64,000 nt of DNA, from assembly GCA_025057155.1 (NCBI GenBank), contig JANWYD010000006.1:1-64000 (forward strand). The letters are read 5' to 3'. Position 1 is the stretch's first letter. The number at the start of each line of letters is the position of its first letter. Both the position numbers and the translations under genes were made by a program. This document shows, piece after piece, positions 3,663-44,732 of the stretch. The stretch comes from Chloroflexaceae bacterium. GTDB lineage: Bacteria > Chloroflexota > Chloroflexia > Chloroflexales > Chloroflexaceae. Below the pieces are notes generated by a model. The model ran no database searches. It was not told the DNA's origin and worked only from the letters and a program-made list of their open reading frames with translations.

Positions 3663-5588
3663 TCACGGCGTCGCCCGGCCCGGCGCATCAAGGGAACCTC
3701 TCCGCAGCACGGCGCCGCCATAGGCCGGCAGCCACAGGGCGCCGCCATGCGCCTCAGCGTCACCGGTTGCCAGGGCCACGTGCCAGCGCCCCGGCGGCAG
3801 GGCGATGCGTCCCGCGAGCGGGCCGTTGTTCAACGCCACCAGCCAGGCTTCATCATCACCGCACAGGCAGGCGTAGTGTCCCAGGGCATCGTCGAGAGCG
3901 ACGGTGCGTCGCGGGCCGCGCCACACCCGGGCCGTGGTGCGCCGCAGCGCGCCGAGCCGCCGGTAGAACGCCAGCAGGTCGGCGTCCTGGGCATCATCCC
4001 AGAGCATCGGCAGCCGCGACTCCTCGGGGTGGGCGCTGCCGTCGGGGTGGCGCACGTCGCGCTCCTGGCTCAGGCCCACCTCGGTGCCATAATAGATGAT
4101 CGGCGGATGCGGCAACGTGTACTGGCAGAGGGCCGCCAGCTTCAACCGGCGCGTATCGCCCCGCACCACCCAGAGGAAGCGGTTCATATCGTGGTTGTCC
4201 AGAAAGCTGGGCATCGCGAAATCGGGCGGGAAGGCTTCAAAATGCCGGCGCAGGAAACTTGCGAACTGGCTGGCCTTCAGGTCGCCGAAGGCAAAGAAGC
4301 GGCGCAGCGCCTGGAGCAGCAAGAAATCCAGGCAGCCGTCCAGCCGCCCGTAGTAGGAACGCACCATCTCGGCGGTATCCACTGCCTCGCCTAGGCTGAT
4401 CGCATCGGCGCGAACGGCCCGCGTGGCGGCGCGGAAGGCCGTCCAGAAGGCGTGGGAGGGGCCAATAGTATAGTCGAGCCGAAAGCCGTCAATGCCCTGT
4501 TGCAGCCAGTAGACCGCGGGGTCAATCATCATGCGCCGCGCCACGGGGTGATCGGTGTTCACCTGCGGCATGCCTGGCACCCCAAAGAAGGCGACGTACC
4601 GGCCGGGGTGCTCGGTGAAGATGAACCAGTCGCGGGCCGGGCTGTGGGGGTCGCGCAGCGCCTCCTGGAAGGCAGGATGCTGGTCGGAGACGTGGTTGGC
4701 GATGTAGTCGAGGAGCACGCGCATCCCCCGCGCATGGGCCCCGGCTACCAGGGCGCGTAGCTCCTCCAGGCTGCCCAGGCGCGGCTCGACGCGGTAGTAG
4801 TCGGTGGCGTCGTACCCGTGGTGCGAGGGCGAGGGGAAGATCGGCGACAGCCAGATGATGCTGGCGCCGAGCGATTGGATGTAGTCGAGGCGCTCGATCA
4901 CCCCGGCCAGGGTGCCGCCGTAGCGGCCCATCAGCGTCGCCGGGCGGGCGAACGGGCGCCCGCCGCCGGGGTTGAAGCGGTCCACGAACACCTGATAGAT
5001 CAGCCCGTCGTGGAGCCAGGCCGGGGTCCGCTCTTCGTCCACGGCGTAGGCGAAGGTGCGGCTGCCGCGCACGAAGGTCAACTCGAACTCCTGGCCCACC
5101 TCGCGCAGAAAGACATCCCCTGGCCCTACTTCCCCCAGCACCGCGCCATCGCCGGCCGTGCTGCCGATAATCTCCCCGGCCCAGACGCTGCGCAGATGAT
5201 GCTCGGACCAGGCTTCAATGCGGTACTGCACAATGACGCCCGCGGGCTGCGGCGGAAGGGTCGCGCGCCACTCTTCGAGGTACCCCCACAGGAAGGTGTT
5301 CCACTCGCTGCCCACTCGCTCGAAGGCCACTGCCTGCGAGCCGGGGGCGGGCGCGCCGCGCGACCCCCCTGGCTCGCTGCCGTCGGTGGTGAAGTAGCAG
5401 GTCACGTGGTCGGCCACCACCGCGGGGCCAAGACTGACCCGCAGGGTCACCGCCTGCCCCGGCGGGGGGTCGGCGGGTTCGATGCGGTAGCGATGGCTCA
5501 CGCCCGACAACTCGGCCTTGAGGAAGGCGAGCCGCCGGGCGTCGGTGGCCATGGTGCCGAAGATAAAATCGGCGGAGACGTCGTCCAT
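3663..5588 (-). CDS. GH13 alpha-amylase-type hydrolase (neopullulanase/cyclomaltodextrinase-like)
   Basis: A 641-residue protein. Residues 1-185 look like an N-terminal beta-sandwich, as in maltogenic amylases and neopullulanases, and the catalytic barrel begins at DGLIYQVFVDRF (about 194). The GH13 regions are present: DYIANH (294-299), GFRLDYT with nucleophile D372, LGEAVD with acid/base E401, and FLDNHD with D467. There is no signal peptide, so it should act in the cytoplasm on imported maltodextrins or cyclodextrins. It is the last gene of the binding-protein/permease locus. No clear ribosome site precedes the ATG at 5588; M13 is an alternative start. Confidence 0.9.
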   Translation of the reverse strand: MDDVSADFIFGTMATDARRLAFLKAELSGVSHRYRIEPADPPPGQAVTLRVSLGPAVVADHVTCYFTTDGSEPGGSRGAPAPGSQAVAFERVGSEWNTFLWGYLEEWRATLPPQPAGVIVQYRIEAWSEHHLRSVWAGEIIGSTAGDGAVLGEVGPGDVFLREVGQEFELTFVRGSRTFAYAVDEERTPAWLHDGLIYQVFVDRFNPGGGRPFARPATLMGRYGGTLAGVIERLDYIQSLGASIIWLSPIFPSPSHHGYDATDYYRVEPRLGSLEELRALVAGAHARGMRVLLDYIANHVSDQHPAFQEALRDPHSPARDWFIFTEHPGRYVAFFGVPGMPQVNTDHPVARRMMIDPAVYWLQQGIDGFRLDYTIGPSHAFWTAFRAATRAVRADAISLGEAVDTAEMVRSYYGRLDGCLDFLLLQALRRFFAFGDLKASQFASFLRRHFEAFPPDFAMPSFLDNHDMNRFLWVVRGDTRRLKLAALCQYTLPHPPIIYYGTEVGLSQERDVRHPDGSAHPEESRLPMLWDDAQDADLLAFYRRLGALRRTTARVWRGPRRTVALDDALGHYACLCGDDEAWLVALNNGPLAGRIALPPGRWHVALATGDAEAHGGALWLPAYGGAVLRRGSLDAPGRATP

Positions 5589-5625
5589 AGGGTCGCGTTC
5601 GTCTGGCTAAGGGTTGCGTCAGTCC

Positions 5626-5774
5626 GTGGAGGTGTGGAGATGTAGAGGTGTGGAGATGTGGAGTTGGGGGCTGTAGAACGCACTGTCAAGCCGATCTGAC
5701 ATCCACGTTTTCAGACGCGGCCATTAAACCTCACCTCCACACCTCCACACCTCCACACCTCCACACCTCCACCT
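5626..5774. repeat. Inverted arrays of the octamer GGAGGTGT
   Basis: The left arm (5626-5663) has about four and a half units of GTGGAGGT or variants; the right arm (5732-5774) has five or more units of the complement CACCTCCA. Together they can fold into a long hairpin with a 68-base loop between the permease and GH13 genes. Related arrays lie at 27944-28040 and 42576-42617. Confidence 0.75.
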
Positions 5775-5775
5775 C

Positions 5776-6873
5776 TCACCCCTTCACGCCGCCCAGGGTC
5801 AGGCCGCCGACGATGTAGCGTTGCAGCAGCAGGTAGACGATCGCCACCGGCAGCGAGACCAGGATGGAGAAGGCGGCGAAGCGCGACCAGGGCACCGAGC
5901 CGGCGTACTGGCCGGTCATATTGTAGAGCGCCATTGCCAGCGTAAAATCCCTGGGATTGGTGAGGAACTGCCAGGAGAGGAAGAACTCGGTCCAGCCCCC
6001 GGCGAAGCTGAGAAAGCCGGTGACGGCCAGGGCGGGCACGGCCAGGGGCAGGACGATCTGGAAGAAGATCTGGTTGGGGCTGGCCCCGTCAATGATCGCC
6101 GCCTCCTCAAGCTCTTTGGGGATGGTGTCGAGGTAGCCCTTGAGGTTCCAGATGGCGAAGGGCAGCGCGCCTGAGATCATGGCGACGCCCACGCCGAGCA
6201 GCGAATTGCGCAGCACGAAGACGTCATCGCGTTCCGGGGCGAAGGCCGTGTAGATCAGCGCCAGGCTGAGGAGCAGGGCCACGCCGCCAACGGCGTAGAC
6301 GCTGGCGCTGGCGGTGCCGGCGCGCAGCGCGGGAACCACGATCATCAGCCCGAAGCCGATCACCAGCGCCGCGGCCACCAGCAGGGCGATGCTCAGCAGG
6401 TCACTGCTGATGCGGATGCCATTCAGCAGGGCGAAGAGCGGAGCGATTGTCGCCACTGCCGGCAGCACGGTTATTGCCAGCACGGCGATCATCATATACT
6501 GCCGCCCCGGAAACTTGAAGCGCGAGAAGGCGTAGGCCGCGCTCACGCCGATCAGCAGCGCGAAGATCGCCACGCCTCCGGCCAGTTTCAGGCTGTTCAG
6601 CGCCAGTTCGCTAAAGGTCACCGGGTTGGCCGTGGGCCGGTCGAGCACGGCGCGATAGGCGTCGAGCGAGGCGCCGGGAGGGATGAGCCGCAGTTCGGTG
6701 GGCCGGGCGATGTTGCGCGGGTCGAGCGACATGCTCACGATCCACAGGATCGGGAAGAGCACCGTCGCCGCGATGAACAGGCAGAGGGCCTGGAAGATCA
6801 GTTGCTGCCACCAGCGCAGACGGCGACCGGAGGCCGTGCTGCCCTTGCGCGTCCGTGTGGCGATGCTAGACAT
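5776..6873 (-). CDS. MalG-type sugar ABC transporter permease with extra membrane insert
   Basis: A 365-residue inner-membrane permease with the EAA loop (ELEEAAIIDGASP, about 255-267) that contacts the ATPase. The family is usually about 280-300 residues. The extra length lies between the P-loop-facing LFALLNGIR (about 147-154) and the LPFAIWNLKGY segment (237-247), where roughly 70 residues carry two additional hydrophobic stretches. Its start overlaps the end of the upstream permease gene by 8 bp, so the two are translationally coupled. No ATPase gene is in the locus; a shared MsmX-type ATPase elsewhere is likely. Confidence 0.88.
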   Translation of the reverse strand: MSSIATRTRKGSTASGRRLRWWQQLIFQALCLFIAATVLFPILWIVSMSLDPRNIARPTELRLIPPGASLDAYRAVLDRPTANPVTFSELALNSLKLAGGVAIFALLIGVSAAYAFSRFKFPGRQYMMIAVLAITVLPAVATIAPLFALLNGIRISSDLLSIALLVAAALVIGFGLMIVVPALRAGTASASVYAVGGVALLLSLALIYTAFAPERDDVFVLRNSLLGVGVAMISGALPFAIWNLKGYLDTIPKELEEAAIIDGASPNQIFFQIVLPLAVPALAVTGFLSFAGGWTEFFLSWQFLTNPRDFTLAMALYNMTGQYAGSVPWSRFAAFSILVSLPVAIVYLLLQRYIVGGLTLGGVKG

Positions 6874-42554: not shown

Positions 42555-42575
42555 GGGTTGGTCCTTGTTTGAACT

Positions 42576-42617
42576 GTGGAGGTGTGGAGGTGTGGAGGTG
42601 CGGAGGTGTGGAGATGC
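42576..42617. repeat. GGAGGTGT octamer array (single arm)
   Basis: Five units of GTGGAGGT or close variants just upstream of the GH35 start, without the opposing arm seen at 5626 and 27944. The rest of 42618-42781 shows a short GGGAAGGGC/GTCTTCCCT hairpin only. Confidence 0.65.
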
Positions 42618-42781
42618 GCATCCACCCTCGTGACACGCGTCTTTCCACCTGATCAGCGATCCTTACCTCGCCAGCGCCTCACACCTTTAATGTTTCCAGG
42701 TCGCGTTTGTGGCCTTTCACAGGTTAGGAGAGCGGTTGTCCGGGAAGGGCGAGTCTTCCCTGGACTATCTCCGGTGTCGTT

Positions 42782-43672
42782 TCAGCTCGAGAGCATGGGG
42801 CGCGCCCAATCCAGGCAGCGTCCGACCAAGAGTTCGGTCATCCGAGCATGGTGCGTGTTTTTCATCGCCACAAGATAGGTGTCAAAGCCGTAGCGCCGCG
42901 CAAGCGAACGCACTTCCTCGGCATCATCATAGGTCATTAAGAAATCACCGGCAAGGGTGCTCGCCAGACGGAACAGTTCCTCGTGATCAAGTTCCGAGTG
43001 GGTGTACAGACGACTGCCAGCGCGTTTTCCGGCGGCGGTGTATGGCGGATCGATGAACCAGACCACATCGTCGCGGCGCGCGTGTTGGCGAACCAGGTTG
43101 AGTCCATCGCCATGCACAAACGTAATCCGGTCTCTCAGCGCCACGATGTCCAGGATGCGCCGTTTGAGCGTTTGTGGATACCAGCGCGACGTTAACCCCT
43201 TACCGTTTTCACCGTGCTTTACCATACTGGCGCCGGCGGCGAGAATACCGCCGCGATTCACGCGATTCTTCAGGATAGTCTGGAAGGCGCGTTCCTCCGA
43301 CGTGACCGGGGCAGCCGAGAGGACCGCCGCCACCGTCTCGCGGGTGACCTCGAAGGTCATAATCCGTTCCACCAGCCATTCCGCATCGCCGCTCAGCAGG
43401 GTCTGCCAGACCGAAGCGACGTGATCGTCGAGTTCGACCATTGTGACGTGGTCTGCCAGATGTTCAAACGCAACGGTCAAACTGACAATGCCGCCGCCGG
43501 CGAACGGCTCGATACACTCCGCTGGACGGAACGGCAGGCTGCGCAACCACGCGCGAATGTACGGCACGAGCCACGTCTTTCCGCCCGGATAGCGGAACGG
43601 GCTGCGCTGAGGCACCATTGCCACATTAATGATCGGCGCGTGAAGATCCGTATCGAGAAACGAGTGTTGCAT
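42782..43672 (-). CDS. D12-class (Dam-like) adenine-N6 DNA methyltransferase
   Basis: A 296-residue methyltransferase with the alpha-group order of motifs: FRYPGGK (26-32, motif X), EPFAGGG (55-61, SAM-binding motif I) and DPPYT (208-212, catalytic motif IV). It methylates adenine N6; the target sequence cannot be read from the protein. The nuclease gene stops only six bases before its start, and AGAGGA in that gene's end can serve as ribosome site, so the pair is an operon. Codon composition is less GC-rich than the surrounding glycoside genes, consistent with acquisition. Confidence 0.9.
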   Translation of the reverse strand: MQHSFLDTDLHAPIINVAMVPQRSPFRYPGGKTWLVPYIRAWLRSLPFRPAECIEPFAGGGIVSLTVAFEHLADHVTMVELDDHVASVWQTLLSGDAEWLVERIMTFEVTRETVAAVLSAAPVTSEERAFQTILKNRVNRGGILAAGASMVKHGENGKGLTSRWYPQTLKRRILDIVALRDRITFVHGDGLNLVRQHARRDDVVWFIDPPYTAAGKRAGSRLYTHSELDHEELFRLASTLAGDFLMTYDDAEEVRSLARRYGFDTYLVAMKNTHHARMTELLVGRCLDWARPMLSS

Positions 43673-43678
43673 AGGTGG

Positions 43679-44548
43679 TTATTCCTCTGGTGAAATGTCA
43701 CCATCTGCGTTGCTACGCGTCTGCTTGCTACGCAGTTTGCGTTGTAGAAAGGCGAGAAAATCTTTTTCGTTGCCTGGTTCTGGTGCCGTCATTCGCTTGA
43801 GAATTGCGGAAAAATCTGTATACAATGTCTGTACAAGTGTTAGTTTGAAGCGATTGGTATGCAAATCATGCTTCAGATCGTAGACGAGCCAAGCGATATC
43901 TGCGCTGCCCTTTGTCGTTTCTGGCAGGTCGGGGAGGCTTGCCAGAAAGCTCTTGTCGATAGCAACGGCAATCTTCTTTTTCCATGAGCGAAAGATGCTT
44001 CCCTTGTAAAGTAATTGAGGTACAAGGCGCTTTCGAGACGAAGACAGATAATCAGGACGCGGGTAATCTTTCTGTTCTGACCAATCCAGAGAGTTTCTGC
44101 TGGTCGGATCTTGCATGAAGAAGGTGAAAGGCTTTCGGACGTTACCGGAGATGTAGACTGCCTGCACCTCAAGAGCGCCATAATCTATCACCTGGCGTTG
44201 TTCATTATATGCTGCCAGAACAACATCAATGTTCCCGGCCGATACACCGTACCGATCCTTGAGTTGTATTTCAGTGAAGGATGTCCATCTGGTTCCAGAT
44301 GGGAAGAAAAACTTTGCGGCATCCTCTGCAATCTGCCAATTTTCGCGAAAACGTATCGGACAGATAATCACGGTCTGTCCTTCATGGTAGATGCTGCATA
44401 CACCTAGAGGATCATCAGCTTTATCTTTGTTACACTTTGCACCTTTGTTGTTGAATGGGCAGAGACGTTCCATGCGATGACGTTTCGCTTCGTCGGAGTG
44501 GTCATCGATACGGAAGCCAAACACCTCGGCTAGCGGCTGCCTCCCCAT
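43679..44548 (-). CDS. NotI-family type II restriction endonuclease
   Basis: A 289-residue protein resembling NotI. Four cysteines (C30 in LCPF, C39 in AKCNKD, C51 in GVCSIY, C63 in IICPI) match the spacing pattern of the NotI metal-binding fold, in which iron is held by four Cys. The catalytic core reads NIDVVLAAY (D108) and YGALEVQ (E127, Q129), the NotI-type variant of PD-(D/E)XK. The gene is far AT-richer than its surroundings. GAGGG lies nine bases before the chosen ATG; an upstream ATG at 44635 would add 29 residues. Its partner methylase follows at once, but it is an adenine enzyme, unlike the cytosine enzyme paired with NotI. Confidence 0.82.
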   Translation of the reverse strand: MGRQPLAEVFGFRIDDHSDEAKRHRMERLCPFNNKGAKCNKDKADDPLGVCSIYHEGQTVIICPIRFRENWQIAEDAAKFFFPSGTRWTSFTEIQLKDRYGVSAGNIDVVLAAYNEQRQVIDYGALEVQAVYISGNVRKPFTFFMQDPTSRNSLDWSEQKDYPRPDYLSSSRKRLVPQLLYKGSIFRSWKKKIAVAIDKSFLASLPDLPETTKGSADIAWLVYDLKHDLHTNRFKLTLVQTLYTDFSAILKRMTAPEPGNEKDFLAFLQRKLRSKQTRSNADGDISPEE

Positions 44549-44732
44549 GCGAATACCCTCTTGCTCTCTCTGATCGTGCAGCGGGTATACTCTAGCACGG
44601 GTGCGGTACTTCGACAAGACGATATAAGTATACACGTTTACGTGTATCTGTCAAGGCGCATAAGAAAAGCCGGGTTCACCTGCGCCCGATCTGGAGGGCA
44701 GGGCCACCGCGCGCCTCCCTGCTGAAATCCTC

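Follow-up and report, generated by a model that had tools for sequence, protein, structure and literature searches.

A NotI-family nuclease and a D12-class methylase form a probable restriction-modification operon in a Chloroflexaceae genome

Organization of the locus

The window, a 64,000-nucleotide stretch at the start of Chloroflexaceae contig JANWYD010000006.1, carries on its minus strand a gene for a NotI-family restriction endonuclease that is followed, after a gap of 6 bp, by the gene for a D12, alpha-class amino-methyltransferase (Table 1). The two genes are flanked by a GH35 beta-galactosidase gene and an FGGY kinase gene. GC content is 47-52% over most of the nuclease gene and 57-61% in the methylase gene, against 63-75% in the flanking genes, which agrees with the preliminary description of the pair as AT-richer than its surroundings.

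Table 1. Coordinates of the gene pair and associated sequence features in the window.
Feature	Position	Strand	Details
NotI-family restriction endonuclease gene	43679-44548	-	289 aa; ATG at 44548; gene 1 of the putative operon
D12 / alpha-class amino-methyltransferase gene	42782-43672	-	296 aa; ATG at 43672; gene 2 of the putative operon
Stretch holding the pair, without homologue in siblings	42558-44576		window compared with G094 and G222 by blastn
Sigma-70-like promoter, TTGACA-16-TATACT	44627-44654	-	consensus scan, 11/12 matches; upstream of the nuclease ATG
Perfect inverted repeat ATACACGTTTACGTGTAT, operator-like	44630-44647		in the promoter spacer and -10 box

In the sibling genome G094, 434 bp separate the beta-galactosidase gene from a small downstream gene, the nuclease and methylase genes are absent, and tblastn is negative. 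In G222, which also lacks the pair, homology extends as far as position 44577 of the window, 29 bp before the nuclease gene begins. Because the pair is missing from the sibling interval, its insertion into the window's lineage is, on this comparison, the most likely origin. The promoter-like segment upstream of the nuclease is homologous in G222 and is probably older than the insertion; its position within shared sequence suggests that the operon may have landed behind a resident promoter. The operator-like inverted repeat is imperfect in G222, no counterpart was found in front of the nuclease genes of the relatives, and no control-protein gene is seen beside it.

The nuclease has a predicted NotI fold

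The nuclease matches the NotI profile PF12183 with E=5e-62 and 209.7 bits (cut-off 22), covering profile positions 7-238 of 238. Residues C30, C39, C51 and C63, together with D108, E127 and Q129, are invariant among 22 aligned proteins that include NotI of PDB 3BVQ, whose sequence was confirmed against the PDB. The YGALEVQ core occupies residues 123-129, and D108, E127 and Q129 constitute a PD-(D/E)XK-type core in which Q replaces K. NotI itself has Q where most PD-(D/E)XK enzymes carry K, and its Cys4 site binds iron (PMC4081073).

The AlphaFold2 model of the nuclease (pLDDT 89.7) aligns with the NotI-DNA complex 3c25 over 271 residues at Z 22.1, while its best non-NotI structure match reaches Z 7.0. 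A single-sequence phmmer search of the PDB with the nuclease gives no match; a profile search retrieves NotI 3BVQ at 1.2e-7, and in PADLOC the nuclease matches REase_II models only. Together, the invariant residues and the match to the NotI fold support the family assignment, and the nuclease is, as judged from sequence and predicted model, a full-length NotI-family member. The preliminary description had recognized a NotI-like nuclease with four cysteines and a YGALEVQ core, which these results bear out; the alignment with NotI that it had proposed as a check retains all four cysteines and the catalytic D, E and Q. The window nuclease therefore has in common with NotI (3BVQ/3C25) the whole-chain fold, the four cysteines and the catalytic D/E/Q, at an identity of about 21%. 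It differs from NotI in its length (289 aa against 383 aa), in a PRPDYLSSSRKRL stretch that NotI lacks, and in its D12 methylase partner.

The methylase is an alpha-class D12 enzyme with M.CbeI as its nearest solved relative

The downstream methylase scores 41.6 bits against the D12 profile PF02086 (cut-off 22) and carries the motifs FRYPGGK, EPFAGGG and DPPYT in the order X-I-TRD-IV that marks the D12, alpha class. Against the Dam subfamily model TIGR00571 it reaches 37.6 bits, below the cut-off of 114.85. The D12 class assigned to the operon partner in the preliminary description thus holds.

The sole PDB sequence matched by the methylase in phmmer is 7m6b, which is also its best profile match and its best fold match (Z 24.7, 24% identity, compared with Z 22.4 and 18% identity for E. 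coli Dam). This entry is titled 'Mcbe1' and is presumably M.CbeI of Caldicellulosiruptor bescii. M.CbeI was annotated as a D12, N6-adenine-specific enzyme and has the DPPY motif, yet it makes N4-methylcytosine in GGCC (PMC3425538). It shares the alpha-class fold and DPPY with the window methylase, of which it is the nearest solved relative, but it is partnered by the HaeIII-like CbeI (GGCC), whereas the window methylase accompanies a NotI-family nuclease. E. coli Dam also has the alpha-class D12 fold but lies on a separate branch of the tree and reads WAGGK where the window methylase reads YPGGK.

In the methylase tree, for which the Dam sequence was checked, the NotI-paired D12 clade groups with D12 enzymes encoded beside HaeIII-family nucleases, apart from Dam (100/100). 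Nostoc D12 genes that adjoin HaeIII-family nucleases are closely related to 7m6b. The window methylase is only about 24-28% identical to enzymes of the M.CbeI type, and the tree places several uncharacterised D12 groups closer to it.

D12 genes also occur away from NotI-like nucleases. Two of them (L068 and L069; Bdellovibrio, Deinococcus plasmids) are 46-54% identical to the window methylase and have no NotI-like neighbour, and one of the two adjoins a PHP/DNA polymerase III alpha-type gene.

The pair is conserved across phyla, and decayed copies appear to lose the nuclease first

A D12 gene lies directly beside the nuclease gene in 33 loci, namely the window and 32 distinct relatives; a few further loci end at contig ends and fall outside this count. 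In the linked relatives the nuclease is about 47-63% identical and the downstream D12 53-70% identical to the window proteins, and the hosts include Chloroflexota, Acidobacteriota, Nitrospirota, Planctomycetota, Spirochaetota, Elusimicrobiota, Deinococcota and others. The recurrence of the same two genes side by side in 32 other loci indicates that the pairing is not due to chance, and it is a common arrangement rather than an odd one. On plasmids, among them one of Thermus brockianus, pEST4011 and one of Aeromonas, the pair is annotated as 'NotI family restriction endonuclease' and 'DNA adenine methylase', and the window operon is a further example of this known, already annotated pair type. 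A search of the open literature returned nothing on D12-paired NotI-like enzymes.

For example, the Thermus brockianus plasmid pTbrSNM4-1c (L022) has the same gene order, with a nuclease 59% and a methylase 55% identical to those of the window; its pair is plasmid-borne and adjoins an integrase, unlike the window pair, and is annotated, although no published characterisation was found. As a NotI relative with a close Thermus homologue, the nuclease may be useful as a rare cutter. Additionally, pEST4011 and plasmids of Variovorax, Burkholderia and Aeromonas carry a D12 gene whose product is 51% identical to the window's, beside a nuclease that is just 28% identical to the window nuclease.

Six loci hold a decayed pair. 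In L009, L014, L015, L017 and L037 the nuclease is split over two frames next to a full-length D12, and L018 retains only the nuclease C-terminus, again with a full-length D12. An intact nuclease with a broken D12 was not seen in any locus with a visible flank. Loss of the nuclease before the D12 would be predicted for a nuclease that is toxic once its methylase is absent.

A probable Type II restriction-modification operon

The 6 bp gap and the linkage in 33 loci are the close association that characterizes Type II restriction-modification genes, and the nuclease and D12 pair is assigned to such an operon with a probability of about 0.93; on the sequence evidence it is probably a real, working system. 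Against this assignment stand the split frames, some of which may reflect no more than errors in draft sequences, the locus L045, in which the nuclease is itself split and no D12 occurs in ~1 kb downstream, and the D12 relatives that lack a NotI-like neighbour (Bdellovibrio, Deinococcus plasmids). That the methylase belongs instead to a PD-Lambda-5-like defence system, with the NotI-like gene incidental to it, is very improbable: PD-Lambda-5_B is its best PADLOC model, at 144.9 bits above all MTase_II models, but the nuclease matches REase_II alone and NotI-D12 pairs are kept together across phyla. Less probable still is that the true partner of the nuclease is a cytosine methylase encoded at another place in the genome, a possibility that the preliminary description had raised. 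A single C5 gene is indeed present (C1:139796-140866), located between an aldehyde dehydrogenase gene and a PfkB-type kinase gene (L202 5782-7116), but it stands alone with no nuclease beside it and is divergent, with only a distant relationship to the C5 methylases paired with NotI-like nucleases, whereas the adjacent D12 stays beside the nuclease throughout the 33 loci. A listing of the genome's C5, D12 and N6/N4 methylases contains no C5 methylase of the NotI-partnering type and no enzyme that fits better than the adjacent D12.

The reading as a Type II restriction-modification operon draws on the folds predicted for both proteins, on the conservation of active-site and metal residues, on the close linkage of the two genes across phyla and on decayed copies that keep the methylase but not the nuclease. 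The first gene would supply a NotI-fold nuclease of the PD-(D/E)XK superfamily, with Q for K and a four-cysteine site that may bind metal. By analogy with NotI, this nuclease would act as a dimer that cuts an unmethylated palindromic site, and the alpha-class amino-methyltransferase would protect the same site in the host. Cleavage, protection, dimerisation and metal binding are thus predicted properties of the window pair.

Methylase partners are exchanged within the NotI family

In the phylum sample, 26 of 301 genomes contain a NotI-family gene. Members more distant from the window nuclease adjoin SPPYW (N4-cytosine type), C5 or again D12 methylases, and in the other NotI-family clades encountered the partners are mostly cytosine-type enzymes (C5 or SPPYW). 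In the nuclease tree, NotI sits on a long branch and its placement is unsure; row L038 of that tree is an artefact, translated from wrong coordinates. The window's own genome (G000) contains a second NotI-like gene on contig C36 (about 4041-5964; L021 / L203), with an SPPYW (N4-cytosine type) methylase gene just upstream and one in-frame TAA in the nuclease.

On plasmid pBN5 (L070, NZ_CP022995.1, 2419-5230), a NotI-family nuclease has a C5 methylase and a Vsr endonuclease as its neighbours. This nuclease shares 82-85% identity with its D12-paired counterparts on pEST4011 and the Aeromonas plasmid, and the C5 methylase shares 72% identity with the partner of the L050 nuclease, which belongs to a different clade. 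The occurrence of a near-identical nuclease with a C5 partner indicates an exchange of methylases. Provided that the pBN5 pair is functional, a pEST4011-type site must be protectable through cytosine. Such a near-identical nuclease with another methylase class provides a natural route to the shared recognition sequence.

Methylated base and recognition sequence

D12 enzymes are for the most part regarded as specific for adenine. The NotI site, GCGGCCGC, contains no adenine, and a partner that makes N6-methyladenine would therefore mean a site different from NotI's, whereas with N4-methylcytosine the site need not differ. The window pair may have a new specificity.

For the base made by the window methylase, N4-methylcytosine and N6-methyladenine stand at about even odds. 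A D12 partner that methylates cytosine at N4 in the manner of M.CbeI/DmtB, with a nuclease cutting a G+C-type palindrome as NotI does, has very nearly an even chance, and would leave the whole NotI family cytosine-protected through three unrelated enzyme classes. It draws on M.CbeI as the only phmmer match in the PDB and the best match by profile and fold, on the position of the NotI-paired clade with the D12 enzymes beside HaeIII-family nucleases, on the DPPY motif of an enzyme whose GGCC target has no adenine, on the C5 or SPPYW partners of other NotI-family clades, and on the C5 partner of the pBN5 nuclease. Weighing against it are the general assignment of D12 enzymes to adenine, a Z difference from Dam of only about 2, and the low identity to M.CbeI-type enzymes with uncharacterised groups in between, which together leave N4-cytosine methylation unproven. 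The stronger proposition, that the D12 'adenine methylases' beside NotI-type nucleases, present in dozens of genomes, are misnamed and make N4-methylcytosine, so that the family is protected via cytosine only by exchangeable C5, beta SPPYW and alpha D12 enzymes, is tentative and somewhat less probable than not.

N6-methyladenine at an adenine-containing site other than GCGGCCGC comes a little short of an even chance. Pfam and the plasmid annotations label the family adenine-specific, DPPY is the usual m6A motif, and the pBN5 swap is also compatible with a site that contains A as well as C. However, D12 class and DPPY do not fix the base, as M.CbeI demonstrates, and a palindrome-avoidance comparison gave no motif. 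The family name is accordingly no ground for inferring m6A, and in D12 methylases paired with NotI-type nucleases the methylated base is not deducible from the name of the methylase. Of the adenine-N6 partner in the preliminary description, the D12 class stands while the adenine is not secured, and the new recognition sequence that it had derived from this premise does not follow.

The avoidance comparison covered 400 kb each of six Chloroflexota genomes, four D12-NotI carriers (G000, G118, G230 and G092) and two without the pair (G134 and G166). Many 6-bp palindromes, among them CGTACG, CAGCTG, CGATCG, CTCGAG and CGGCCG, are depleted in carriers and non-carriers, and no palindrome cleanly separates the four from the two. 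For many of them, including CGTACG, CAGCTG, GAGCTC and CTCGAG, depletion is strong in both groups, beyond maximal-order Markov expectation (L078-L197). As a possible analogue, M.DraR1 (CCGCGG, m4C) was rejected, its nuclease being a GIY-YIG enzyme and unrelated.

A separate plasmid-borne pair may bear on specificity within the family. Plasmid pBspH9 of Acinetobacter sp. NEB 394 (L077, 2899-4864) encodes a site-specific methylase and a NotI-family nuclease, and the strain is the namesake of the BspHI systems. These may be the BspHI genes, in which case the specificities of the NotI family would widen.
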